Source of the DNA: Gigantopelta aegis
Taxonomy: Eukaryota; Mollusca; Gastropoda; Neomphalida; Peltospiridae
Assembly (NCBI RefSeq): GCF_016097555.1
Contig: NC_054712.1
Span: 43,124,567 to 43,188,566 of the forward strand
Direction of reading: 5' to 3'
DNA length: 64,000 bases
The notes under the pieces were generated by a model. It was not told where the DNA came from, made no database searches, and was given only the letters and a program-made list of their open reading frames with translations. Positions 32,916 to 57,343 of the stretch are shown here, in pieces; within the stretch, counting starts at the first letter, position 1, and every line of letters starts with the position of its first letter. The position numbers were made by a program, and so were the translations under genes.

Positions 32916-33288
32916 GGAAAGAAATGTTTTATTTAACGACGCACTCAACACATTTTATTTACGGTTATATAGCGTCAGACATATGGTTAAGGACCACACA
33001 GACAGAGCCCCCGCCACTACATGGGCTACCCTTTCCGATTAGCAGCAAGGGATCTTTTATTTGCGCTTCCCATAGGCAGGATAGCACAAACCATGGCCTT
33101 TGTTGAACCAGTTATGGATCACTGGTCGGTGCAAGTGGTTTACACCTACCCATTGAGCCTTGTGGAGAACTCACTCAGGGTTTGGAGTCGGTATCTGGAT
33201 TAAAAATCCCATGCCTCGACTGGGATCCGAACCCAGTACCTACCAGCCTGTAGACCGATGGCCTACCACGACGCCACCGAGGCCGGTC
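32916..33288 (-). mobile_element. SINE, head B, tail type 1
   Basis: The tail and body are the same as in the head-A SINEs, but the head is different. On the minus strand it reads CCTCGGTGGCGTCGTGGTAG with a B box GGTTCGGATCCC. Flanked by ACATTCCTGCAAC at 32903-32915 and 33289-33301. Confidence 0.9.
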
Positions 33289-37540: not shown

Positions 37541-39475
37541 GTAATTTGTTGATGTCCGATCCGCACAGTAACACATCAGCTGACATTCATATCTGTGGTA
37601 CGTGCAAAGCTCAGTTCAGCGACGTCATTGTTTTTCTCACACACAAAAAGGAGTGTTCTGAAACCTGCTTACTGCCACCACCAATACCACAAACCAGAAG
37701 GCCACACAGTTTGAATACTAACAATGATCCAGCTACGTCCATGTATGAAAACAATGTCCGAAGTCTCGAGTCTTCTGTCTTGGACAGAGATGATGGTCAG
37801 GACATGGATGTTGCTCACACTGAAGCACTTCACAGATCAGGTGATGGGGTGATGGTGTCGCTCAGTTTGTCATCTGATGGAGTCCGGGACAGTAGCACAC
37901 ATCTTATTCAGCCAACCAGCAAGGCAGTCATTGTCAGTGACGGACAAAGGTTGTATCAAGAGCAGAGGATTGTTGATTCACAAAGTTTACATCACGGACA
38001 AGGGGTTGCTTCACCAAACCAAAGATCACATGTGGTTCTTGAACAGCAAAGGATCCAACATCGATCTCCCAGGATCACACAGGATAGGTTTAGAGAAGGT
38101 TCTCAACATCGAGTTGAGAGTCAGTTTCCTCGGCAAGTAGAAGCCCATATGGTTGAGAAAAATATCCAGAATGTTACATCGAAGCTTTCTCAAGAAGCAG
38201 TAAGTGGAAATCTTCAACAGACAGGAGTTCTCGTTGCACAGCCAAACTTTCGCATGACTACATCGAGATCCCGTGGCTTGATTCCTGATAGAGTAGAAAG
38301 CCTCGTCCAGCAGAATGCCCACCAGGTGACAGACAAGTCTGTTGAGGAGACTCTGTCTGTGTCCGCTGGTGGACAAACCGTGGTGTTCACTGACGGGTCT
38401 CAGCTCTCTCAGATTATAACATCAGATGGACAGCCTGTTGTTCTGCAAGGTGGAACCCAGCTTCCTCACATTGTCAGTTCTGATGGGCAGACCATCTTAC
38501 TTAGAGATGGAGCCAAATTTACCCAGACGGCATCTTCAGATGGACAGTCTGTTCTCTTGCAAGACGGAACTCCGCTCTCTCAGATTGTCACATCAGATGG
38601 ACAAAGCATCTTGTTAAGAGATGGAGCCCAACTCACGCAGGTTCAAAATGCAGGTAGACAAACTGTTCTACTGAAAGATGGAACCCAGATTTCTCAGGTT
38701 CAGACTTCAGATTCAGGATGGCACCATCAGACAGTTCTTGACCAGAGTCAGCTGAGGGGGTCAGTTGATGGCATCAGTTCTTACGATGATGCTGAAATGT
38801 TCACAGCACCAGAGACAAGTATGAATTTTGAAGCTCACACTTCCAGCAATTCCAGATCAGAAGCTTCTAATTTCCAGACTAACACAAATGTGATGTTTCA
38901 TTCCCAGGATCCTACAGCAGAACACCTGCATATGGACAGTCTTTCTGACACATCCATCTCCGAACAATCTCTCAGGGATGCTGTCAATCTTCTTGCTAAA
39001 GGCAAAGGCCAAAGTGTTGCTCACCAGAAAGTAACTGAAAGTGGTTCTTCAAACTCTTCCTCTAGTATCTTAACACACAAATCTGGTGCCAGGGGATCGA
39101 AGAGACTGAAGCTGGATGATCTAGGTATGTCTGCCATACTCCACGTGAGTCAGGACTCCTCTATATCATCGTCTGGTGTTTTTGACTCAGCTTCATCTAC
39201 CAGCATTCATGATGCTGCTGCCTCAGCAGGTATTTATGATGCTTCATCCTCGTTGACTTCTCTCCAGGATCCTGTACCATCTGGTGTTGTGTATCACATT
39301 CCTTCGTCAGCTGCTGGACAAGAGGGTGAAGTGTCTGCTGCTGCTGATGGTGTTGCTGCTTCTGCTACAGGGATTCATGGTGCCAGCTTCCAGCAGGTGG
39401 CAGTAAACGAAGGAATTGCACATATTCAGAACTCACAACAGACACAGCAGATAGGAGTGTCTAAAACAGGACTAG
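37541..39475 (+). CDS. ZFP64: ZFP64 exon 2 (N-terminal region)
   Basis: Acceptor TTATTTACAG at 37531-37540; donor GTAATT at 39476. The exon starts in frame upstream of ATG 37552, so either this ATG or an upstream exon supplies the start. It encodes the conserved CGTCKAQF finger-like motif, then a Gln/Ser-rich region. Six 19-residue repeats (38365-38706) have the pattern SDGQxxLLxDGxxLxQxx. Poly-Ser and Ala-rich tracts follow. No other fingers. Confidence 0.88.
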
Positions 39476-42400
39476 GTAATTTGTTTTGTTATTTGCTATC
39501 AGCCACATGCTCCAGTATTTATTGCTAAGTACTAGGGTATGTGTGTGTGTGTTTCAGTGGTAGAGAACTGGTTTTTTGGAATATTTCAGACTGATGTGTC
39601 ATACTAAACATAAGAGAGCTATTTTTCGGGAATGTTTTAGACTATATTGAGTCATACTGTAAATATAAGAGAACTGTGTTTTTCTGAAATGTTTCAGATT
39701 ATAATAATTATTGAGTCATACTTTACATATACTCTTCAAAAAAAGAAACGCAAAAGGGTACAAATGGGTTATAACTCCGATTTTATGTTTCCTACCGGTT
39801 CATGCTTTGTGAATATAAGGTCATTGCATGTCCCAAACACATTCCCACGGTTACATTCGATAAAACGCAGCTACTGTACAATAAAGTTCCAAAATGTGAA
39901 TATTCGCAAAAACGCAGCCACGTGCAAACCATGTCACCACTGCACGTGCGTTGTCTGCACGTGCAACATGAACACCGACAGTATAAAAGTGCAGGGTGTT
40001 CGCTTGCCTGGCCTCTGTATCTGGCCGACAGTTGACAATCCAGGACATGCCACGTCTCAGTGAACCGCAGAGAAACAATGCCATCGGCCGACTAGACGCA
40101 GGCGAATCCAGAACGGCCGTTGCCAGGGCATTCCATGTGTCCCCAAGCACCATCTCCAGACTGTGGGACCGTTACCAGCAACATGGATCAACACGTGACC
40201 TCCCTAGATCCGGTCGACCACGGGTCACTACCCCCGGGCAGGACCGCTACATCCGGGTACGCCACCTTCGGGAACGATTGACTACTGCCACCTCCACAGC
40301 CGCAGCAATACCAGGTTTGCGCAGGATATCCGACCAGACCGTACGGAACCACCTACGTGAGGTAGGAATTCGTGCCAGACGTCCAGTTCGAGGTGTCATC
40401 TTAACACCACAACACCGTCGACTCCGATTGCAGTGGTGCCAGATTAATCGACAATGGCCTCAACTGCGATGGAGACAGGTGTGGTTCAGTGACGAGTCCC
40501 GATTTCTGCTCCAACGTCATGATGGAAAATGTCGCTTGTATAGGCGTCGTGGTGAACGTTATGCGGCAAACTGCGTGCAGGAAGTGGACAGATTCGGCGG
40601 GGGTAGTTTCATGGTGTGGGCAGCCATCTCACACACTGGCAGAACTGACCTGGTCCACGTGCAGGGCAACCTGAATGCACAGGGCTACATTGACCAGATC
40701 CTCCGGCCACACATCGTTCCAGTTATGGCCAACGCCAACGCAGTGTTCCAACATGACAACGCCAGGCCTCACACAGCACGTCTCACAACGGCTTTCCTAC
40801 AGAACAACAACATTAATGTCCTTCCTTGGCCATCGATATCACCGGATTTGAACCCAATTGAGCATCTATGGGACGAGTTGGACCGACGCCTCCGACAGCG
40901 ACAACCACAGCCTCAGACCCTGCCCGAGCTGGCAGCAGCCTTGCAGGCCGAGTGGGCCACCATCCCCCGGGACGTCATCCGTACTCTGGTTGCTTCAATG
41001 GGCAGGCGGTGCCAGGCAGTTGTCAACACACGCGGAGGCCACACCCGGTATTGACTCCAGATGACCGTGACCTTGGTGGTGTGTCCTATCACTTACTCAC
41101 AATGGACTAGAGTGAATTGTGAACAATCCTGCAACATTTGGTAATTATCGGACTCACCATTCAATAATTAAATCAATTCTCCAAATGTTACGACAATGTG
41201 GTTTTGCGTTTCTTCTTTTGAAGAGTATATAAGAGAACTGTTTTACTGGAATGTTTCAGACTATGATGAGTCATACTTTACATATAGAACAGTTGTTTTT
41301 CTGGAATGTTTCAGACTATGTAGTCACAGTGCACGATCCCGACTCGCCCAGCAAGAAACGGTTCAAGTGTTCCGTGGCCGACTGCCACTTCACGACGACC
41401 TACATTCGTGACCTTGACCGACACAACCGAGTGCACACCGGCGAGCGTCCGTACATCTGTCCGCTGTGTCCCAAGTCGTTCAGTCGGTCGGACAAACTCA
41501 ACATTCATCTGAGGGGACACACGGGTGCAAAACCATTCAAGTGCAATTTCTGTAAGTAGCATTTATTATAGAGCTTGGTGCATGTACAGACATTTCCTTT
41601 CAGTTTCCATGCTAATACTGATGCATAGCTTCTGTACTCTGACTTCAGTGGACCTGGTTTGAGTTTGGAGTTTTCCTTCTCCTAGGAGTTTACTTACTAG
41701 GATTCTGAGCCTCTCCAGCCCAGTTTTGATTTTGAAGTTTGCTTCTTCTAGACAGTTGTCTTTCTTGACTCATGTCCTCTGACTGTCCGGTACATATTAG
41801 TCTAGTCTCTACCCTTTGACCAGTCAAGCTTGAGTGACCCTACCAGGAGCTGATGCTCCAGCTGGCATAGCTTTCCGAGTCATTGAGACATGCAAGCTAC
41901 CTGACCAGTCAAGGAATGGACCATGAGATAGGTAAGTAGCATTGACAGGCAGGGTAGCGACAGTAGATGGCTTAATAAATTAAAGGTTTACACATGTAGC
42001 TCTAGATTAGCAGATAATTTCACCAAATTATAACTTAAAAATTTCTTCAAAACTAGCAGACATAAAATTATTTTCTAACAAAATATCAATTACAGCGATG
42101 TGAGAACTACACGGAAACGTGGAAATACGCTTTTCCATTTAGTCTAAAAAAACAAAAAACATGATGTTCAATACTGTTGACCACACAAGGTTCATTTGCA
42201 TGTTTTCACGGTTTCAAGTTTATGATGTGTGCCTTATATTATAAGTTATAACCAGTTCAGATTTGTTAGCATTGAATGTAATTTTTGGCAGTTCCAGGTG
42301 TTAAAAACAACAATTTTCCTTCAGAGACCCTTGAGTGGCCCCTGGCCGCAGTAAGCTTTTTTGTTCCAGCCCCTCTCAAATCCCTGCAATTATTATATGA

Positions 42401-45400
42401 AATTACGAGACCAATGACAATAGAATTTGCCAATTGTTTTTAAAATTCACAATTGGCAAATGTGGCGAGTGCCAGAGGTAGCCCTGATTTTCGTATGGAA
42501 TTTGTGACTTGAAATATACCCTGCTCATCCTGTTCAACTGATGTTCACTACCATGAGCCGTTAAGCAAATATTTAAAACTGTTATTATTAATTAGCCAGG
42601 GACTTAACAACATGTTCTGTAGGTCCTTCCCAAAAGAAAGTGGCACTGAAAATTCCCAATTTCTATGCTCAAAATTCCCAATATTATATATTTTTAATTA
42701 TTTCTGTTAAAATTAATAAATTAATTTAACAGTGGTTACTGCATCATGCAGTGGCCTAAAACAATATTCCAAGTATGATTTACTCGTTCTGATTTTCCCA
42801 ATCTCACATACATGTATAACCATGGCAAAAAATTCTGGATATATCCCTGTTAGTTTAAATAGAGAATAAATAGTTAATGACGTGTCGGATACTTCATTTA
42901 TCCTGTGAAGGTAAGAATGGGTAATTCTCATTTGGCCTGAACAGGATAAAGCAGATATCCAATGTCATTAATTGGTTATTATCTTTACCCTGCAGACCAT
43001 AAAAAATTAGGGGGAAAAGCTATTATTTCTGTTATTTCAGCCACAGTGTATGATGACCTGGAGGTCAAATGAGCGATTACCGACCTCGATGGTGTCGTGG
43101 TTAAGCCATCGGTCTACAGACTGGTAGGTACAGGGTTCGCATCCTGGTACCGGCTCCAACCCAGAGTGAGTTCTTATTGGCTCAATGGGTAGGTGTAAGA
43201 CCACTACACCATCTTCTCTCTCACTAACCACTAACCAACTAACAACTAACCCACTGTCCTGGACAACCAGCCCAGATAGCTGAGGTGTGTGCCCAGGACA
43301 GCGTGCTTGAACCTTAATTGAATATAAGCACGAAAATAACTTGAAATGAAATGAGTTGAGTGATTTCGTAATGTAGCTATGCGCGTGACGTCAAAAGTCA
43401 TATCCTGCTACCACACAAATATGACTTTGCTTTATCTGTCATCATATTCTGTAAATAGAAACGATGGTTGCTGGATAAAAATATATTTTTTTTTTTTTGT
43501 CTAATTTAATATTTATAACTATTGAAATATGATTTATGACTAGTAATATATGATTTATGGATACCAAAAATCTGTGACTTTGGCTACCGAAATATGAATA
43601 ATTAATGGAATGTGAAGATACATGTATAAATGTCCTAGCGTTACTGAAAAATATATAACAAAATACTCTTTAATTCTTTACGGGCCCAATAGTAAAGCAC
43701 CCCCTCGATGCGCGGTTGGTGTGGGATTGATCCTCGTCGGTGGGCCCATTGGGCTATTTCTCGTTCCAGCCAGTGCACCATGACTGGTATATCAAAGGCC
43801 GTGGTATGTACTACCGTGTCTGTGGGATGGTACATATAAAAGATCCCTTGCTGCTAATCGGAAAGAGTAGCCCATGAAGTGGTGACAGCGGGTATCCTCT
43901 CTCAATATCTGTGTGGTCCTTAACCATATGTTTGACGCCATATATTATAACCGTAAATAAAATGTGTTGAGTGCGTCGTTAAATAAAACATGTCCTTCCT
44001 TCCTTCTTTTAATTCTTTCTTTTTGTTTTGTTTATTTATTAGAAATGTTGTACTACAAAGTATCTGTATTTCAGGTGACTATGGCGCGGCAGATAGCAGT
44101 AGTTTGAAGAAACACATCAGAATCCACACAGATGAAAGACCTTTTAGGTAGGCAGGCTGCGAATCTAGCACGATTTCCAGGGAACATTTTGTTGAGTATC
44201 GCGTCGTGATTCCCTACACAAGATTCACAGATCTCTACACAATTTTGTAACATTAAACAGTAGTTGCTAATCAAGTTTCAGTCAACTAAGATCGATGGCA
44301 GTCACTTTTCGCACCCTTGTTTTGGCTTCATACACAATAAATATAGCATATCTTACCGTAATTTCACTTGAAATCCATATATCGTAAAAGGTACGATTTT
44401 TTAATCACAAGATTTTCTTCAAACACATTCAGGTGCATTAGTAATGTTCAAACAAAAAAATCTCAATAGCAATTTTGCACTGGAATTTTTCCAGCATTCT
44501 TAAAACGGAAACGTCATGTACCCAGTTATGGTTATTGTAAGCAGATGCAAATTGACGTCATTGGAATACTGACGTTATTCAAATTCAGAATTAACTATGC
44601 TATTACATTGCTTCGCTGCATTAAAGTAAAAACTGGTCTACTAAATTTCTATAACAAACAGACAACTTTGTTTACAAGTCGGTATTTTTCATAATTCTGG
44701 ACAAAATATTAATTTTAAATTTTAAAACATGAAAGAAATAAAAAGTACCTTTTGTTAAATATGTCATATCAGAAAATTACCATTGGATATGTTTTATTTA
44801 TTGTGTACGAAGCCAAAACAAGGGTCCGAAAAGTGACTGTCATCGACCTTAGAAGTATTGCTAATCAAGATTTTGAAAACAAATCCCACATTTTAGCTCG
44901 GAAACATAAGATTTTGAGATGGAAATCCCATAATATCTATATTACATATTTTATGATTTTGGCATATCTTTAAAAAGAAACCACACATTGATTGCCTGTG
45001 TGCTCTCTCCCCCCTCCCCCCCCCCCCCCCCCCCCCCAATGACTGGCGTCTTTGGTCATTCTGAGTTTTCCAGGGGAGGATGGAGTACCCCCCAATGACT
45101 GGCGTCTTTGGTCATTCTGAGTTTTCCAGGGGAGGATGGAGTACCCCCCAATGACTGGCGTCTTTGGTCATTCTGAGTTTTCCAGGGGAGGATGGAGTAG
45201 TGCCTCTGTCAAGCTGACAATCACTATGTTGCCCTGGAAGAAGGAAGGAAGGAAATGTTTTATTTAACGACGCACTCAACACATTTTATTTACGGTCATA
45301 TGGCGTTGGACATATGGTGAAGTACCACACAGATATTGAGGGAGGAAACCCACTGTCGCCACTTCATGGGCTACTCTTTTTTTTATTAGCAGCAAGGGAT

Positions 45401-48400
45401 CTTTTATATGCATCATCCCACAGACAGGGTAGCACTGTTGCCCTGGAATGCCTGATATGTTTGTCCAGAGATTATGGAAACTCTTTGTCTCACAGTCATA
45501 CTCATAGTCATTGCATTCTGGGTCCTTGTTGGGACGGGACGTAGCTCTGTGGTACAGCGCTCGCCTGATGCGCGATCGATCTAGGATCGATTCTCCCATT
45601 GGTGGGCCCATTGGGCTATTTCTCGTTCCAGCCAGTGGTCCACAACTGGTGTAACAAAGGCCGTGGTATGTACTATCCTGTCTGAGGGATAGTGCATATA
45701 AAAGATCCCATGCTGCTAATTGAAAAGAGTAGCCCATGAAGTGGCGACAGCGGGTTTCCTATCTCAATATATGTGTGGTCCATATCCATATGTCCGATGC
45801 CATATAACTTTAAATAAAATGTGTTGAGTACGTTGTTAGATAAAACATTTCCTTCCTTCTATGTCCTTGTTCTATTTAAAGCCAACTAGGTTTTGGGTAG
45901 TGTGAAATATTTTGGGCTATTATATTGTTTTGTTCTTTACTGTTGGCTTATGCAAATTACTTTCAACATTTTTGCTTCAACTGTTTTGGATAACCACTTT
46001 ACATGCAAACATATTAAGCAGTTTATGTGATAATATTAATTTTCAACCATTTTGGACTAGATGAATTTTGTAAAAACACTTTACGTTATTAGTTATATGG
46101 AGATCAGTCCCTGTTGGTGACCCAGTGGGCTATTGCTCGTTCCAGCCAGTGCACCACAAATGGTATATCAAATACAGTGGTATGTGCTATTCTGTCTATG
46201 GGATTGTGCATATAAAAGATCCCTTGGTACTAATGAAAAAATGTAGCGGGTTTCCTCTAAGACTATATGTCAAAATTAAATGTTTCACATCCAATAAATA
46301 AACAAATTAACGTGCTCTAGTGGTGTCGTTAAATAAAACAAACTTTTTTTTTTTTAGTTATATGGAATTTTATTTTAAATATTAGACCTTAGACCTGTCA
46401 TTGGATAAACAGTTTACTCACCCCACGACCTTACTGTAATGCATGCCAGTCTAAAGTATAATTATTATTACCCTAAACACTGGTGTGAGACCTCGCTTTT
46501 GTCACTGTACCATTTTGATGATGTAATAGACAATGTGTCCTTCTTTGTTAAATTAAATCCAACAAATTGTGCACTTACTACATGAAATTCTTCTGTGTCT
46601 TCTTCCACAATTTTGGATTTAATAAGTTAAAAAACACCAATTACAACTAATACTGTTAACATGTTGACCTCTACCATCATGAAATGTTATTGTGAGCAGG
46701 GCTAGCTCTGTTCTCAGGAATTGCTTTTCACATGTTAAATTGACCTTGACCATGACCTTAACCTTATTGCAGGTGTCAGATCTGCCCGTACGCGAGTCGC
46801 AACTCCAGTCAGCTGATCGTGCACCTTCGCACCCACACCGGGGACAGTCCATTTCAGTGCAGTGTTTGTGACGCCAAGTTTAAAATCAACTCCGACCTCA
46901 AGCGCCACATGAGGATTCACACGGGAGAAAAACCATATGGCTGTGATTTGTGTGACTACAGGTGTTCTGTCAGAGGTAAGAGGTTTACTCTCGGGCAACC
47001 CCAAGTGATACTACCATAACATTAAACAATCAAATATATTTTTTTTTTTACCAGGCAATCTCAAATGTCACCACCATAACATTAAACAATGAATATTTTT
47101 TTCTTTTTTACCAGGCATTGGCAAGTGTCACCACCATAACATTAAACAGTTAAATATATCTTTTTTTTACCAGATAACTTACTGTCAGTACCATAACATT
47201 AAACAATCAAGTATATCAGACCTTGCTGTTTCCTCATCACTCCTCTCAGACTAGTTCAAGGAGAGCAATTTTTAGCTCCCTTTAGCATGAGAATTTATAC
47301 GATATCAGTATGGTAATATCTTAAATGGCTCCCCATAATCTTTGTGAGGGGAGCAATTAATCACACCCGTCAAGTTGTTTTCACTGCGAAGTCTGATGTA
47401 TCTTTTTTTTACCAGGCAACTTCAAGTATCAGTACCATAACATGAAACAATTAAATATATATTTTGCCCCAGGCAACCTCAAGTGTTTGTGACATATCAT
47501 TAAACAATGAAATATATCCTTTTTTCCCCAGGCAACCTCAAGTTGTTGTGACGTATCATTAAACAATCAGGGCTCACCCTGTACATTGCCAAATTAGCCA
47601 GTTGCTAATTTTTATATAAAATGGCTACAAAATTTAGCCTTTGGCTAAAAGAATATTCCTCAAATTAACCACATTTTAATAAATTTCAAGGAAATACTCA
47701 AAATTGACTAAACCAAAATTTGTTCCAGTGTGAGCCCTGAACAATGAAATATATCTTATTCCCTAGGCAACCTCAAGTGTCAGTACCGTAACATTAAACA
47801 ACCAAATATATCTTATTCCCTAGGCAACCTCAAGTGTCAGTACCGTAACATTAAACAACCAAATATATCTTATTCCCTAGGCAACCTCAAGTGTCAGTAC
47901 CGTAACATTAAACAACCAAATATATCTTATTCCCTAGGCAACCTCAAGTGTCAGTACCGTAACATTAAACAACCAAATATATCTTATTCCCTAGGCAACC
48001 TCAAGTGTCAGTACCGTAACATTAAACAACCAAATATATCTTATTCCCTAGGCAACCTCAAGTGTCAGTACCGTAACATTAAACAACCAAATATATCTTA
48101 TTCCCTAGGCAACCTCAAGTGTCAGTACCGTAACATTAAACAACCAAATATATCTTATTCCCTAGGCAACCTCAAGTGTCAGTACCGTAACATTAAACAA
48201 CCAAATATATCTTATTCCCTAGGCAACCTCAAGTGTCAGTACCGTAACATTAAACAACCAAATATATCTTATTCCCTAGGCAACCTCAAGTGTCAGTACC
48301 GTAACATTAAACAACCAAATATATCTTATTCCCTAGGCAACCTCAAGTGTCAGTACCGTAACATTAAACAACCAAATATATCTTATTCCCTAGGCAACCT

Positions 48401-51400
48401 CAAGTGTCAGTACCGTAACATTAAACAACCAAATATATCTTATTCCAGGCAACCTCAAGTGTCAGTACCGTAACATTAAACAACCAAATATATCTTATTC
48501 CCTAGGCAACCTCAAGTGTCAGTACCGTAACATTAAAGAACCAATATATCTTATTCCCTAGGCAACCTCAAGTGTCAGTACCGTAACATTAAACAACCAA
48601 ATATATCTATTCCCTAGGCAACCTCAAGTGTCAGTACCGTAACATTAAACAACCAAATATATCTTATTCCCTAGGCAACCTCAAGTGTCAGTACCGTAAC
48701 ATTAAACAACCAAATATATCTTATTCCCTAGGCAACCTCAAGTGTCAGTACCGTAACATTAAACAACCAAATATATCTTATTCCCTAGGCAACCTCAAGT
48801 GTCAGTACCGTAACATTAAACAACCAAATATATCTTATTCCCTAGGCAACCTCAAGTGTCAGTACCGTAACATTAAACAACCAAATATATCTTATTCCCT
48901 AGGCAACCTCAAATGTCAGTACCATAACATTAAACAACCAAATATATCTTATTGCCTAGGCAACCTCAAGTGTCACTACCGCATCAACCACTCGAGTGAG
49001 AACCAGATGTCGTGTCCCGAACCCAACTGTAAGTTCACCTCGTCCTCGAGGAAGACCCTATGGGAGCACAAGAAGACGCACGACCTGTTGCGGCCAATCA
49101 AATGCGAGGTGTGCAGCTACGCGTGTGCCAGCAACAGTGCGCTGAAGATGCACATGCGAGTTCACAGCGCGGACAGACCCTACAACTGTGGCATCTGCAG
49201 CTACTCGTCCAAACAGAGCGGGAACGTCAAGACGCACATCCGGAAGAGGCACCCGGAAACGTTGCAGATCCGGTCGGGCAGAAGTGGTAAGAAGAAAGGG
49301 AGGGTCCAATGGAGCGCCTCGGAGGAGGACCCCGGGATACCAAAGCTGCGACAGAACTGCCGCAAGGCGTACAAGTGTAACATCTGTTCCGCGTCGTTCG
49401 TCAGGGAGGACTCGTTGAGGAGTCACATGCGACAGCACTGCCGCGAGATTGAGCAGAATCTTGAGAGTACTGCCCTGGCCGTGTTGGAGCAGCAGCAGAG
49501 TAGCGCAGGGCAGCAGCAGCAGCAGGGGGTGTCAGTGATCCCTCAACACGACCAGCTGACATCCGTGTGTTGTTCTACCTCCCAGCAGATCCCAGCCGCT
49601 CTCGATACGACTAACAGTATTAACCAGAATGTGAAAATTACTCATTCAGATCCTTACATGTTCCTCTCGCAGCCGCACAAGACTGGAGAGAAGACGATTA
49701 AGTTGGTGTCGACATCACTTCCTATCCACTCCGATGAATCTCTCTCTCAGCAAGTTGTGCTTGGTTCACAGTCTACAGCGACGCTGGAAAAGGAAAGTGG
49801 ACTGACGATGTATCAGGTTTCTCAGAGTGGGAGCCAGTCATCCGATGATCGGTTGATTCCTGTTTCCATGCTTGAGACACATCTGCCTGGTGGTTCGCGG
49901 AACACATCACGTGACACCGTAGTAACAAGTTCCATGCCGACGACGACCACGGTGATGTCACGTTCGATAGTGAGCGATGGACAGCCTCTTTCCACATCTG
50001 ATATACAGCAGAATCATCCAATGTTAACTGCAGGTTCGTAAACAGTCTTTAACTCTTATCCACCCAGCTTTCCAACGTGAAATATGTAATTTTGAACCTA
50101 CATTATTCAACCTCAAATTGTAAAAAAGCCCAACTAATTTAACGCTATTTTGATGTATGTTCATAGTTTAGAGGACATATCAGTGAATCTAATTACCAAA
50201 ATAAAACTTACAGAAGAACTTATTAATATTTGATTTTTTTTTTTTAAAACCCCTACGATCATGATCCATGACGTTATTGTTTATGACAGTTTATTTTCAC
50301 TTTCAATCGACGTCAGGTAATCCATCCATCATCTACTTCAAAGTCTGTATTATCAGTTATTTTCAGTGAATACATCCTTTACAAATCTTCAGTTTTCATT
50401 AAATAATAATGTCCCAACATGTTTTAAAAGAAATAATTATATAAATAGCGAGAAATCAAACCTATGTGTGCATTACGTTATCAATAACGTTTACACAAAT
50501 TTAGACTGTTTTTTGTTTTCTTTTTGATATTGTGATAATAACTTAAATACGAATACCAGTCAACAAAATACACTCAACGTGTTCGATTGTGATCCTACTA
50601 TGTTCTAGCATTCACAGAATCAAGATAGATAACTCCTGTGAATGTTGACAGCTGTGAGTATGAAGACCGGTCGCGTCTCAACTGCAGCCGAGAATGGGAG
50701 GGAATGAGTTAAATAACATTATTGGCTAATATAAAAAGTCTCTGCATACATTTTTGTAATTTTGATTTTAATATGAATTTGTATCCCAAATGAAAGAATT
50801 TGTGGGGGGGTTTTGTACAATAATTTTCATATAAATTTAATATCCCAAATGAAAGAATTTGTCGTCTTTGTAAAACAATTTTCATTTGACATATTTTTCA
50901 TATTGCTATCAGAGATAACATTTGATATTTTGTTTTAAAGCTGGTTAACAATATTGTTTTGTTCTGTCTTTTTTTTGTTATTAAAAAACAATTCCACAGT
51001 GATGCAGCAAGGTGTTGAAGTGGCCGTCAACTTCCCCCAGATGAGAATTCCCCAACACATGACGTACCAGACGGAACCGACCACCAGCCAGGTCCTGGAG
51101 CCCGTGTTCCTGACTCCGAACAAACACCAGCCCGGCATCGCGTCCAACCAGTCACCCCAGGACCACCTCTCCAGTCTCGCACACGCTGCCGCACAGATCC
51201 AAATCCCTGTCTCATCCCAAATCCAAATCCCTGTCTCGTCCCAGATCCAAATCCCTGTCTCATCCCAAATCCAAGTCCCTGTCTCATCCCAGATCCAAAT
51301 CCCTGTCTCGTCCCAGATCCATATCCCCACCTCATCCCAGATCCACATGCCCATGTCGTCCCAGCAGACCGTCATGAAGAAACCCATCCGGATAATCACC

Positions 51401-54400: not shown

Positions 54401-57343
54401 TTACAAGGTTACTGAATGAGTAGTTAAGGGTTAATTAAAAATTAACCAGTTAGGAATAGAGTTGTAATTCCTTTATTAATCAAGTTCCCCTGGCAGCGTT
54501 TCTCAATTATCACACGCGTGTGGATTGTATCACTGTGCAGTGATTAGAATATTGTGTAAACTAGACACCTAGTTATTAACTAATGAAGTGATTAGCCCTG
54601 GGTTGTTATTATATTTTTGTTGTTAATTAACTACTGCGGCAAGTACATTTGTCAGCGTAGTGTTAATACAGATTCCAAAGTGTATTGTGTTTTGTTGTGT
54701 TTTCTAGTGAACTAAACGTGCTACATGTATATTTTTTATATAAGATCTTATCTCTGATCATACCTAGAGCCGAGCTACTCGGGTATTAGACTGCCCGATA
54801 CAGAGAGATCTAATAGATATACAGTTAGAAGAGATATTTGGATAATCGTGTTTTATTCAGTTACGGGTATTATAGGATCCCCGTGACAACCCTAACCGTA
54901 AACCTAACCCATTTTATTTCTGGGTGAGGCCCCCATACTTCCTATTGATTGCGGTAGCATTCAGCACACACTTTGTAATTAATCAATTTTGTAGCGCCAT
55001 ACCCAAAAATTTCTTTCTGGCAGAAACACTAAATACAATTATGAACTATGAACTGTATGATTGAAATCTATTTTAATGTATACTTGTATTGCCAATAATG
55101 AGTAAAAAGCAAAGCATCTTACAAAATACCTAAGCTAAACATTCCAAACTTTATCAAAACAAGGATACCTTATGACATTTCAATCTTTTCATTATATGCA
55201 CTATACACAAATCAACAAATTATGTCAGTATTCAAGAGAAAATTGTACAATCTACGTCACTGTTCAAGATAATTAACTCTTTGTTACTGTTCCTTTTAGC
55301 CAAAAAGCAGTTTTAATGCTGGATTTTCAATATGTTTTATACAACTGAAATAGCCTTTATTAGAAATGAAAGCACATGTTATATACAGTCGAACTTCGAT
55401 AACTCCACCTTCGATCTCTCGAAAACTTCGATCTCTTGATCTGAAGCAACGGTCCCGGCCAAGTTGCTATACAAACTAGTAATAACGGCCTTCGAAAACT
55501 CAAACTAAAATTCTATAAACTCGATCTCTCGACCTAATTCTTTTGTCCCGCCATAAAGATTTAATAGAATATGTACCTCTAAAACCCAACGCATGTCGAT
55601 TGATCAAACTGTCGTCGTTACCAATAGTATTTTAAAGACGAATGTATTGTCAATCATGTTAATCAAGAGAAGCGCGCCTGTTTCTGGTGGTCTTGGCTGT
55701 CGAGGATTACGGTGATAATTACAGATTAATAGATCGCTGACTTAGTGGAACGAAATGATCCTGTGTTTCGTTGTCGGTGTGTGTACGTGGTTGAGAGCCT
55801 CACTACGTAATACATAATTACAGACACAGTCTGCTTAACTTCAAAGAGCATTTGTAATAATTGTTAGCGCTGTTTGTTTTTGTTCTCAAAGGCTTGAATC
55901 GTGTCAAACTTTAGCTTTTCTATTTATGTATCGGTCATTTAGTTATGTTAAAAATTGATACATCATAAGATCGAGCAATCTGGGGAAGGACCCGGTAATG
56001 TGGGGATAGCCAGATCAGTTTTAAAAAGTTCTGCTTTCTTGTCATCCACGCAATCTCGTGTAGGGCCCAGAAATGGGGGTGGGTAGCCAGATTGGAGAAA
56101 GAAAGAAAGAGGTGCGAATTGTAAATAATTTTGTGTAAAACAAATGAACTTAGTGTTATTTGGCACTCAGTTTTTTATTTGTTAGTTTACGTTCCACCAT
56201 GTTTTGACGTCTGTAAAATACGTCAACGTTCATTATATCATTTACTTTCTGTTATTTATATATGTATGCAAATGCCTTCTTGTTTTGTTTCTTTTTGCTG
56301 TCAATAAATACATGTAGCCTATATGCCTAAGCATATATTTCAAATTCATCTGGGTTATCTTTTTTGTTTTGTTATTTACTTACTTTTACAATATACGCAA
56401 AATGAATGTACCACAGGCATCGAAGATGCCAACAGCTGGGGTGGGGTGGGCTGGGGTGGGGTGGGGTGGGGTGGCAGTGATATATTAATTCACCGTTTAA
56501 CTGGGGATGCATAATTCAGAGGTAGGCAGCGAAGCTCACGCTTCTCACAATATTAAGCAAAATCGACCAGCTGCAATGCTGTTTCAAATTTGAACTCATA
56601 TATTACTTTTGAAAACTCAACTCATTGAAACTTGAATTAATTCCTCGTCCCCTTCAAGATCGAGTTATCAAAGTTTGACTGTAATTGATTTTTACAGGGA
56701 AACCACTTCAAAAATTAAAATATATTTTTAAACTTATGGCCTTGGGGCTTAAAGAAAGAAAGAAAGAAATGTTTTGTTTAACGACGCACTCAACACATTT
56801 TATTTACGGTTATATGGCGTCAGACATATGGTTAAGGACCACACAGATTTTGAGATGAAACCCGCTGTCGCCACTACATAGGCTACTCTTTCCGATTAGC
56901 AGCAAGGGATCTTTTATTTGTACTTCCCACAGGCAGGATAGCACAAACCATGCCTTTGTTGAACCAGTTATGGATCACTGGTCGGTGCAAGTGGTTTACA
57001 CCTACCCATTGAGCCTTGCAGAGCACTCACTCTGGGTTTGGAGTCGGTATCTGGATTAAAAATCCCATGCCTCGACTGGGATCCGAACCCAGTACCTACC
57101 AGCCTGTAGACCGATGGCCTAACCACTATGCCACCGAGGCCGGTGGGGGCTTAAAGAAGACCGATCTATAGGTTTAAAAATAAGGGCTTCTCAATTTTCT
57201 AGTAACTGATCTGTAACTGCTCATTTCAGATTCGAGTGTCGTGGGTCAAAGTCCGATCTCAGTGATTCAAGATGGAGTTCAACTTCAAGAAGTCATTGTA
57301 GCAGTAGACAGGTCTTCACTGATTGGTTCAGCAGTCTCCAGGG
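37552..57343 (+). CDS. ZFP64: ZFP64 orthologue, multi-exon C2H2 zinc-finger protein (3' end not seen)
   Basis: Nuclear C2H2 transcription factor. Coding exons: 37541-39475, 41315-41551, 44075-44147, 46773-46975, 48960-50033, 51000-51784, 52246-52552, 57230-57343. Every junction is GT-AG and phases agree (1,1,2,1,1,0,1). From the ATG at 37552 this gives about 1572 residues, against about 680 in human, mainly through a long N-terminal region. Matches to ZFP64 include DIHICGTCKAQF near the N-terminus, then DYGAADSSSLKKHIRIH, CQICPYASRNSSQL and KFKINSDLKRHMRIHTGEKP. The finger array (about ten fingers) spans exons 3-6, and the C-terminus QDGVQLQEVIVAV resembles the human end. The last exon seen ends in a good GTGAGT donor, so more exons are expected beyond the window or unrecognised. 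Introns 2, 3 and 5 carry duplicated splice sites. Confidence 0.9.
39732..41225 (+). mobile_element. Tc1-like DNA transposon, apparently complete
   Basis: 1494 bp with 24-bp terminal inverted repeats (CTCTTCAAAA start, GAAACGCAAAA at the inner end), differing at one position. Flanked by TA at 39730-39731 and 41226-41227. It carries one uninterrupted transposase gene. It lies inside ZFP64 intron 2, in the same direction as the host gene. Confidence 0.93.
40047..41054 (+). CDS. Tc1/mariner transposase (DD34E)
   Basis: 335 residues, the usual length for Tc1 transposases; cuts and pastes the element at TA sites. The N-terminal part is a paired-like helix-turn-helix: VARAFHVSPSTISRLWDRY, then the GRPRVTT linker. 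Catalytic residues are visible in WFSDESRF (first Asp), VFQHDNARPHTA (second Asp) and SPDLNPIEHLWDEL (Glu), with 34 residues between the last two. The start is the first ATG in frame, giving MPRLSEPQRNNAIGRLDAGE. GC content is higher than in the surrounding intron. No stops or frameshifts are seen, so it may be recent and possibly active. Confidence 0.93.
   Translation: MPRLSEPQRNNAIGRLDAGESRTAVARAFHVSPSTISRLWDRYQQHGSTRDLPRSGRPRVTTPGQDRYIRVRHLRERLTTATSTAAAIPGLRRISDQTVRNHLREVGIRARRPVRGVILTPQHRRLRLQWCQINRQWPQLRWRQVWFSDESRFLLQRHDGKCRLYRRRGERYAANCVQEVDRFGGGSFMVWAAISHTGRTDLVHVQGNLNAQGYIDQILRPHIVPVMANANAVFQHDNARPHTARLTTAFLQNNNINVLPWPSISPDLNPIEHLWDELDRRLRQRQPQPQTLPELAAALQAEWATIPRDVIRTLVASMGRRCQAVVNTRGGHTRY
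41315..41551 (+). CDS. ZFP64: ZFP64 exon 3 (fingers 1-2 and start of 3)
   Basis: Begins with the split Asp codon, DYVVTVHDPDSPSKKRFKC, and encodes fingers FKCSVADCHFTTTYIRDLDRH and YICPLCPKSFSRSDKLNIH. It ends within FKCNFC at a GTAAGT donor (41552). The phase matches exons 2 and 4. Confidence 0.93.
41564..41931 (+). repeat. unclassified repeat inserted at the exon 3 donor, copy 2
   Basis: Same family as 15172-15507. Its 12-bp target duplication is GTAAGTAGCATT, at 41552-41563 and 41932-41943, which is the 5' splice site of exon 3. A duplication of this length fits target-primed retrotransposition. Confidence 0.75.
42014..42485 (-). mobile_element. hAT-like element, interrupted copy
   Basis: In reverse relative to 13746-13912. 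The outer part is at 42420-42485, ending GTGCCAGAGGTAGCCCTG; the inner part is near 42014-42092. About 330 bp of other sequence lies between. Confidence 0.45.
42855..43490. repeat. interspersed repeat with hairpin, split by a SINE
   Basis: Reverse copy of 2709-3050. The hairpin part is at 42857-42990. A head-B SINE is inserted at about 43080-43370, with TGAGCGATT/TGAGTGATT flanks. The uninterrupted copy at 2.8 kb shows the empty site. Confidence 0.65.
43080..43370 (+). mobile_element. SINE, head B, tail type 3
   Basis: Head B (CTCGATGGTGTCGTGGTTAA, B box GGTTCGCATCC) is joined to a different 3' part: CCAGGACAGCGTGCTTGAAC, then AAGCACGAAAATAACTTG and AAATGAAATGAG. Pieces of the same tail occur near 28150-28215 and, reversed, near 60850-60915. 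Confidence 0.75.
43676..44012 (+). mobile_element. SINE, head A, tail type 1
   Basis: Almost complete plus-strand copy ending TCGTTAAATAAAACATGTCC, about 60 bp upstream of the exon 4 acceptor. Confidence 0.85.
44075..44147 (+). CDS. ZFP64: ZFP64 exon 4 (finger 3)
   Basis: 73 bp after TCTGTATTTCAG. It completes the finger begun in exon 3 (DYGAADSSSLKKHIRIH) and runs through the linker TDERPFR to a GTAGGC donor. Nearly identical to the human segment DYAAADSSSLNKHLRIH. Confidence 0.93.
44170..44990. repeat. large inverted-repeat element in ZFP64 intron 4
   Basis: Arms of roughly 100-130 bp (about 44255-44360 and 44775-44890) share ATCGATG.CAGTCACTTTTCG-like and CCTTGTTTTGGCTTC segments in opposite orientation. 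No terminal duplication identified. Confidence 0.55.
45032..45199. repeat. 56-bp minisatellite, 3 copies
   Basis: AATGACTGGCGTCTTTGG begins at 45038, 45094 and 45150. The array follows a poly-C run of about 25-30 bases at 45006-45037. Confidence 0.9.
45238..45437 (-). mobile_element. SINE, tail type 1, head missing
   Basis: Minus-strand tail (GGAAATGTTTTATTTAACGA) and body, ending at CCCACAGACAGGGTAGCAC. Confidence 0.8.
45530..45861 (+). mobile_element. SINE, head A, tail type 1
   Basis: Complete plus-strand copy: GGGACGTAGCTCTGTGG, GGATCGATTCTCCC, body, and tail ending ACATTTCCTTCCTTC. Confidence 0.85.
46104..46344 (+). mobile_element. SINE, tail type 2, head truncated
   Basis: Starts near the B-box position and keeps the body and the GTGCTCTAGTGGTGTCGTTA tail. 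Confidence 0.75.
46773..46975 (+). CDS. ZFP64: ZFP64 exon 5 (fingers 4, 5 and first half of 6)
   Basis: After ACCTTATTGCAG. Encodes CQICPYASRNSSQLIVHLRTH, FQCSVCDAKFKINSDLKRH and the Cys half of finger 6 (CDLCDYRCSVRG), then a GTAAGA donor. The His half of finger 6 is in exon 6, on the far side of the tandem array. Confidence 0.95.
47217..47395. mobile_element. hAT-like MITE (CAGACC family) in the array
   Basis: Ends CAGACCTTGCTG and GCGAAGTCTG. The 8-bp flanks AAGTATAT and ATGTATCT match at six positions. It splits one of the older acceptor copies; relative at 26132-26349. Confidence 0.65.
47568..47739. mobile_element. hAT-like MITE in the array
   Basis: 172 bp with ends CAGGGCTCACCCTG and CAGTGTGAGCCCTG. 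Flanked by AACAAT at 47562-47567 and 47740-47745. It lies between the diverged and the regular parts of the array. A partial relative ends near 25418. Confidence 0.7.
48960..50033 (+). CDS. ZFP64: ZFP64 exon 6 (fingers 6-10 and Gln-rich region)
   Basis: Starts with the His half of finger 6 (NLKCHYRINH). It continues with SCPEPNCKFTSSSRKTLWEH, IKCEVCSYACASNSALKMH, YNCGICSYSSKQSGNVKTH and, after a basic linker, YKCNICSASFVREDSLRSH. A Gln-rich, then Ser/Thr-rich segment follows. The donor GTTCGT at 50034 is weak, but the phase matches exon 7. Reading on would stop within two codons. Confidence 0.92.
50782..50885. repeat. 59-bp tandem duplication in intron 6
   Basis: ATCCCAAATGAAAGAATTTG occurs at about 50783 and 50842, followed by ACAATTTTCAT-type sequence in both. 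Confidence 0.7.
51000..51784 (+). CDS. ZFP64: ZFP64 exon 7 (Gln/Ser-rich region)
   Basis: Acceptor AATTCCACAG; phase-0 donor GTAGGG. No fingers. Seven 8-residue repeats of QIQIPVSS type lie at 51194-51361, followed by a Ser run (about 51665-51688). Human ZFP64 also has a long disordered C-terminal half. Confidence 0.85.
51194..51361 (+). repeat. 24-bp coding minisatellite
   Basis: Seven in-frame units starting CAGATCCAAATCCCTGTC, with the last two more diverged (IHIPTSS, IHMPMSS). They encode alternating hydrophobic residues spaced by Ser and Gln. Confidence 0.9.
51838..52146 (+). mobile_element. SINE, head A, tail type 2
   Basis: Plus-strand copy 54 bp after the exon 7 donor. Head with ACATAGTCCAGTGGTAAAGC and GGATCGATTCCC, and tail GTGCTCTAGTGGTGTCGTTA. 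Fills most of intron 7. Confidence 0.85.
52246..52552 (+). CDS. ZFP64: ZFP64 exon 8
   Basis: Long pyrimidine tract and CTCAG acceptor. It encodes VIKPSTTQTSYPINIITQE onward, a hydrophobic/Gln-rich stretch (FQIVLPSGVQSPQIV, QHQIIVQVEEVGG), and ends at GTACTT in phase 1. Confidence 0.85.
52598..52739. repeat. 142-bp near-perfect palindrome
   Basis: Arms from ATCACCGTT to a central GGCCGAGG/CCGAGGCCC region, containing GGCAATTCCAACCC and its inverse. Begins 45 bp after exon 8. Probable foldback MITE. Confidence 0.75.
53348..53555 (+). mobile_element. SINE, tail type 1, 5'-truncated
   Basis: Starts at AAAGGCCGTGGTATGTGC and ends at CGTTAAATAAAACATTTCC and CTTCCTTC. Confidence 0.85.
53844..54888 (+). 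mobile_element. solo LTR (same family as 33666-34851)
   Basis: 1045 bp, TGT...ACA ends, flanked by the 5-bp duplication ACCCT (53839-53843 and 54889-54893). Opposite orientation to the other copy. Two TTACGTAA motifs (53915, 53989). No internal region. Old fossil in ZFP64 intron 8. Confidence 0.8.
55386..56681. mobile_element. Tigger/pogo-like non-autonomous element
   Basis: Ends CAGTCGAACTTCGATAACTC and GAGTTATCAAAGTTTGACTG are inverted, with TA on both sides (55384-55385 and 56682-56683). Subterminal copies of CGATCTCTCG lie near the left end. No transposase recognised. A (GGGGT)n run is at 56438-56474. Confidence 0.7.
56438..56474 (+). repeat. (GGGGT)n run with G-quadruplex potential
   Basis: At least six runs of three or more G separated by single T or CT. 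Confidence 0.7.
56757..57145 (-). mobile_element. SINE, head B, tail type 1
   Basis: Complete minus-strand copy with head B. Flanked by GGGGCTTAAAGAA (56744-56756 and 57146-57158). Ends 84 bp before exon 9. Confidence 0.9.
57230..57343 (+). CDS. ZFP64: ZFP64 exon 9 (last one seen)
   Basis: Acceptor CTCATTTCAG; encodes SSVVGQSPISVIQDGVQLQ then EVIVAVDRSSLIGSAVSR, and ends at GTGAGT in phase 1. If not spliced, translation stops at TAA 57349-57351, after adding Gly-Glu. The IQDG-type motif resembles the human C-terminus (LIQEG). Confidence 0.8.

Follow-up and report, generated by a model that had tools for sequence, protein, structure and literature searches.

Arrays of duplicated intron-exon boundaries, termed 'mirages', have been published for amphioxus, where RT-PCR suggested that splicing is undisturbed (PMC3087553). 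The genes concerned include the globins BflGb6 and BflGb9. The BflGb6 array has units of 150-160 bp, six in one haplotype and three in another, and the units of the Adh3 mirage measure 10-72 bp. These arrays are unstable in length, and the edges of the clusters are excluded from homogenisation (PMC3087553). In human genes, internal tandem repeats, which are minisatellites with on average four units of 30 bp, alter the structure of exons and introns (PMC2812944). PMC3087553 is the sole paper on boundary minisatellites that our literature search returned; the search was not worded for molluscs, and an earlier mollusc report is possible.

Here we describe intron 5 of a ZFP64-like gene of the mollusc Gigantopelta aegis (46976-48959; positions are those of the window, the whole 64-kb stretch of DNA that was analysed, and the gene and its repeat units lie on the plus strand). 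The molluscan source agrees with five matches in the assembly to the haemocyanin beta-sandwich family PF14830, which belongs to the molluscan type; none of 14 control genomes matched, but those named among them are prokaryotes, so that this control carries little weight. The abalone egg-lysin family gave no match in the assembly and none in the controls, and is uninformative. In intron 5, the junction with exon 6 recurs 28 times, as seven old and 21 young copies. The sequence-only reading of this locus had known of no array on this scale, an impression that the amphioxus mirages weaken, although the globin array is smaller. Its count of 21 near-identical and about seven older copies is borne out by two methods. 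Wraparound alignment to the unit places 28 starts from 46995 to 48903, with the 21 young ones at 47767-48903 and exon 6 beginning at 48960. Tandem Repeats Finder concurs, with one stretch at 47740-48981 (period 57, 21.9 copies, 98% matches, score 2407) and two older stretches at 47013-47216 (period 60) and 47399-47567 (period 59). Each unit spans the boundary, with about 35 nt of intron end and about 22 nt of exon 6 start; over the first 22 nt, unit and exon 6 are identical at 21 positions. As proposed earlier, the unit has the make-up of an acceptor module, since a branch-point-like block, a pyrimidine tract, an AG and the first exon-6-like bases are present in every copy. The branch-point-like motif CGTAAC that had been given for the unit is found in the young copies, whereas the old ones mostly carry CATAAC. 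The copy at 46995 is preceded by CTCTCGG and has no AG ahead of it; the other 27 of the 28 copies do, which makes 27 decoy acceptors and, with the real one, 28 acceptor modules. The 'some 28 alternatives' first proposed are therefore reached only when the real site is counted.

The intron opens (46976-46994) with the donor GAG/GTAAGA, which scores 10.13 by an approximate matrix, and the first unit starts 19 nt on. The seven old units (46995-47766) are diverged and start at 46995, 47055, 47115, 47174, 47416, 47473 and 47532. Most of them have longer T-rich tracts than the young units. Five are uninterrupted and measure 57-60 nt; each of the other two is broken by an insert with inverted ends and hence predates it. 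The fourth old unit contains an insert at 47212-47400 (no strand assigned), whose 18-nt inverted termini are 78% complementary and which looks like the relic of a small DNA transposon (MITE). The insert in the seventh old unit (47567-47740, likewise without strand) has 15-nt inverted termini that are 93% complementary, is flanked by repeated AACAAT and also looks like a MITE. The two inserts qualify the earlier description of the intron as almost wholly made of a 57-bp unit: the 28 units are there, but part of the intron is not repeat.

The 21 young 57-nt units (47767-48959) are homogenised inside the array and diverged at its edge. Of the 21, 17 equal the consensus, and the exceptions are the units at 48394 (a 2-nt deletion), 48506 (one substitution and a 1-nt deletion), 48562 (a 1-nt deletion) and 48903 (three substitutions). 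The three deletion-bearing units lie in one stretch (48394-48617), and their deletions of 2, 1 and 1 nt are either real or consensus errors. Divergence is found in the seven old units and in the last unit, which adjoins exon 6 and whose three substitutions are private to it. These private substitutions at the exon edge resemble the unhomogenised cluster edges of BflGb6 (PMC3087553), a likeness that speaks for a minisatellite.

Exon 5 (46773-46975) encodes two complete C2H2 fingers followed by half of a third, and ends on the first position of a codon, as judged from the open reading frame and its translation; its start was placed by eye, from sequence alone, at TTATTGCAG/GTGTCAG. Exon 6 (48960-50033, with the 3' end estimated at CTGCAG/GTTCGT) completes the split finger and adds more fingers and a tail. 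The acceptor that had been placed at 48960 fits the predicted protein, in which the joined exons 5 and 6 would give a C2H2 finger of ordinary spacing. One CTCF domain aligns across the junction without a gap, and the other junction-crossing alignments shown (ZNF568 and Aart) have single-residue shifts near the joint and no 19-residue step. The gene may resemble human ZFP64 and share an intron position with it. PDB entry 2dmd (ZFP64, isoforms 1 and 2) matches at E 2.5e-21, and other zinc-finger proteins score higher; the name ZFP64, based on the fingers, is therefore provisional. The great length of exon 6 (about 1.07 kb) may make its definition as an exon weak, which counts against an array that is simply tolerated.

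We searched for the unit in the 1,149,253,464-base assembly. An exact 42-nt pattern gave 17 hits and a DNA search with two units gave 15 matches, both counts being lower bounds, and all of them fall within intron 5. Neither search returned a copy of the unit elsewhere in the 1.149-Gb assembly or a second haplotype copy, within the same lower bounds. A mobile-element origin of the unit was rejected on this ground, and the confinement of the matches to intron 5 makes the array look like a local minisatellite and not a dispersed element. Minisatellites of comparable size are common in the genome. In 20 evenly spaced 10-kb stretches, all from contig C14 (200,000 bases, 5,200 N), the number of merged arrays (period 20-200) is 29 at a minimum of 2.5 copies and falls to 20, 13 and 6 when the minimum is raised to 5, 10 and 20 copies. 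The corresponding numbers in the 64-kb window are 8, 3, 1 and 1, the last being the array in intron 5. Large minisatellites are thus ordinary in G. aegis. Scaled naively, the sample corresponds to some 75,000 arrays with 10 or more copies in the whole genome. With 21,438 genes (PMC7895826) and an assumed six or so introns per gene, a few hundred array seeds would be expected, as an order of magnitude only, to straddle an acceptor in the absence of selection.

These data suggest that the array is probably a tolerated junction minisatellite, derived from a tandem duplication across the boundary of intron 5 and exon 6 and subsequently expanded and homogenised. Minisatellites expand and homogenise through slippage or unequal exchange. 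At this locus, the founding event would have duplicated a short segment over the boundary, some 35 intronic and some 22 exonic nucleotides, and slippage or unequal exchange may later have enlarged and homogenised the array beside the exon. The acceptor at 48960 presumably still yields most of the functional mRNA. Any leakage to the decoys would in most cases run into premature stops; from the six nearest to the exon, it would add multiples of 19 residues within a zinc finger.

We derived the predicted outcome of each decoy from a frame map. For 21 of the 27 decoys, translation would end prematurely within the array. From the acceptors of the last six units (48618-48959), at 48618, 48675, 48732, 48789, 48846 and 48903, the frame of exon 6 is kept and stays open, and their use would add from 114 (48618) down to 19 (48903) residues within one zinc finger. 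Upstream of the three deletions (net -4 nt), the young units have lost this frame; if the deletions are errors of the consensus, it would be kept by each of the 21 young decoys. This question matters in view of the suspected identity of the assembly with the one of PMC7895826, which was built from PacBio reads with Canu correction and wtdbg2. One open reading frame (48593-50041) connects the array with exon 6, and another (47748-48473) is open as well. An in-frame open 57-nt unit is expected by chance in about one case in eight (an estimate, one third times about 0.4) and constitutes weak evidence. We considered selection for an in-frame unit and found it unsupported, given this chance level, the stops met from the old-unit acceptors and the deletions carried by young units.

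The predicted strength of the splice signals does not single out the real acceptor. All scores derive from approximate matrices; 17 of the 28 acceptors were scored, and the other 11 have an upstream 20 nt identical to that of 47824. The real site at 48960 reaches 3.28 bits, compared with 4.69-6.52 for the young decoys and 4.82-13.62 for the old ones, and is the weakest of the 28 by this crude measure. The old acceptors nearest the donor look strongest, with five of six at 8.45-13.62 and one at 4.82. For three other presumed acceptors in the gene, the scores are 7.91, 16.53 and, at 51000, -2.42, so that a low matrix score does not disqualify a site. The recognition of short introns should favour a nearby strong acceptor, and the first decoy would create an intron of 79 nt with a strong-looking one. 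Neither strength nor proximity to the donor would therefore explain a use of 48960, and both the weakest score of the real site and the short intron offered by the first decoy weigh against a tolerated minisatellite. What distinguishes 48960 is its exon context, with 54% GC in exon 6 as opposed to 37% in the young array and 34% in the old part, and this context would mark the site. Micro-exons formed through donor-like sites within each unit were also considered and set aside: among sites before 47900 and after 48900, ACC/GTAACA scores 0.03 and the best repeated site 2.78, and a donor-like site of 4.52 occurs in the last unit alone.

We compared the decay of the different parts of the unit between the seven old copies and the young consensus, with all seven included and no anchor. 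In the branch-point block (TAACATTAAACA, 12 columns), 3 of 84 cells are changed and 2 of 12 columns are variable. The exon-like columns 1-22 have 36 of 154 cells changed and 18 of 22 columns variable, and columns 35-54 have 30 of 140 and 12 of 20, respectively; the seventh old unit was over-trimmed by about two bases at its insert, which affects columns 35-37 and not the branch-point block. A Fisher test on columns gives a P-value of 0.0006 for the comparison with the exon-like part and of 0.0017 for that with all other columns within 1-54. Since the block was picked after inspection of the data, we also asked by permutation how often any window of 12 columns is as low (P-value 0.027 for cells and 0.021 for columns), which corrects for the choice in part. 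The same trend is detectable in a version restricted to five of the seven old units, with the two interrupted ones dropped and a motif as anchor (2 of 60 cells as compared to 25 of 110). Each of the seven old units has retained its terminal AG. The units share ancestry, and the preservation of the branch-point block is hence only suggestive. It fits the past use of each unit as an active acceptor, or its continuing use. The better preservation of the block in the old decoys than simple neutral decay predicts goes against the minisatellite reading.

The alternative that fares best takes the decoys as poison acceptors, which would be used and would lower or tune ZFP64 output through premature stops and mRNA decay, with array length setting the dose. 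The stops predicted for most decoys, the strong look of the donor-proximal old sites next to the weakest real site, and a branch-point block that is the best-preserved part of the old units, together with their retained AGs, are all in line with this possibility. Against it, the block was chosen post hoc in units of common ancestry, the preserved signals may date from the time when each unit was itself the active acceptor, and splicing in the amphioxus precedent appears undisturbed (PMC3087553). On balance, we regard poison acceptors as unlikely. A stronger version, in which a hypervariable minisatellite with selected branch-point blocks works as a splice regulator and would set the dose and form of ZFP64 in each animal through copy-number-dependent diversion to stops or to finger-splitting insertions, we hold to be quite unlikely.

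It is also improbable that the array is an artefact of assembly and that the true number of copies is far lower. The sequence comes from a single assembly, and 11 consecutive identical units are hard for noisy long reads. On the other hand, the array, at about 2 kb, is shorter than ordinary long reads, and the diverged old units, the two inserts and the distinct variant units anchor it at several points. The least likely of the readings is that translation takes in the last units (or, should the deletions be errors, the whole young set of 21) as an in-frame repeat exon that gives a ladder of k x 19 residues in one finger: 57 equals 3 x 19, the unit is open in the frame of exon 6, as the two open reading frames reflect, and single-base deletions are a plausible type of error if the assembly is the PacBio one of PMC7895826, but the open frame has the chance level given above, the old-unit acceptors run into stops, and one inserted unit splits the finger and lowers the whole-protein zf-C2H2 score from 81.5 to 73.8 bits, though five matched stretches remain either way.

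The array offers a natural dose series for the choice of acceptor: of its 27 decoys, some 21, in steps of about 57 nt, have nearly identical local signals, and the weakest-looking site comes last. In the living animal, the usage of each AG would tell the contribution of signal strength apart from those of exon context and of distance to the donor. Counted across the genome and compared with the background density of minisatellites, junction arrays would serve to gauge how far selection removes decoy splice sites.

The locus can be placed among the known systems in which splice sites are multiplied. At NAGNAG acceptors, several AGs likewise compete for one exon, but there the sites lie a few nucleotides apart and share one branch point and tract, whereas each copy described here has its own set. 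Intron gain by tandem genomic duplication (PMC4974935, PMC3443670) resembles it in that a tandem duplication feeds new splice sites, and differs in that our array lies within an existing intron and creates no new intron position. The survey of human internal repeats (PMC2812944) also includes whole repeats within exons and is not limited to boundaries. The closest counterpart is the BflGb6 mirage, in which the unit likewise consists of an intron end and an exon start, many units carry usable-looking signals, the array adjoins the real site, and homogenisation inside gives way to divergence at the edge (PMC3087553). The present array is distinguished from it by its 28 copies of about 57 nt, as opposed to 6 and 3 units of 150-160 bp, and from the amphioxus mirages in general by its occurrence in a mollusc, its in-frame open unit and the two inserts in its old part. 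By its structure, it appears to be a striking case of this known kind, with an effect on splicing that is predicted only, and it would extend the mirage phenomenon of amphioxus to a mollusc.

Two exons of the ZFP64-like gene carry coding repeats of their own. Within the large N-terminal exon, a repeat with a period of 114 nt (window positions 38422-38697) encodes 19-residue repeats (TSDGQ...LLQDGT...). The 57-nt half-period of this repeat coincidentally equals the unit length of the junction array in intron 5; the two sequences are apparently unrelated. A downstream exon holds 6.3 copies of a 24-nt coding repeat that reads IQIPVSSQ or similar (51194-51345). The coding sequence of exon 6 also contains a donor-like site, ACT|GTAAGT, at 49029, which scores 6.45 with an approximate matrix.

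Tandem repetition is found beyond these exons too. The intron preceding exon 5 bears three tandem copies of a 56-nt unit with 100% matches (45032-45199), including TTTTCCAG, and no exon was seen at this repeat. Two of the 10-kb stretches sampled from contig C14 for minisatellite background harbor large minisatellites, one of 51.9 copies of 84 nt (L016, 1-4325) and one of 24.7 copies of 63 nt (L031, 447-2004).

ARAGORN returned weak tRNA-like calls at 33212-33283 and at 57068-57140 on the reverse strand, of which Rfam calls only the latter; both are probably SINE heads. Finally, the span of the ZFP64-like gene includes an open frame of 355 residues from stop to stop (39987-41054), by its appearance a putative transposase of the Tc1/mariner type.
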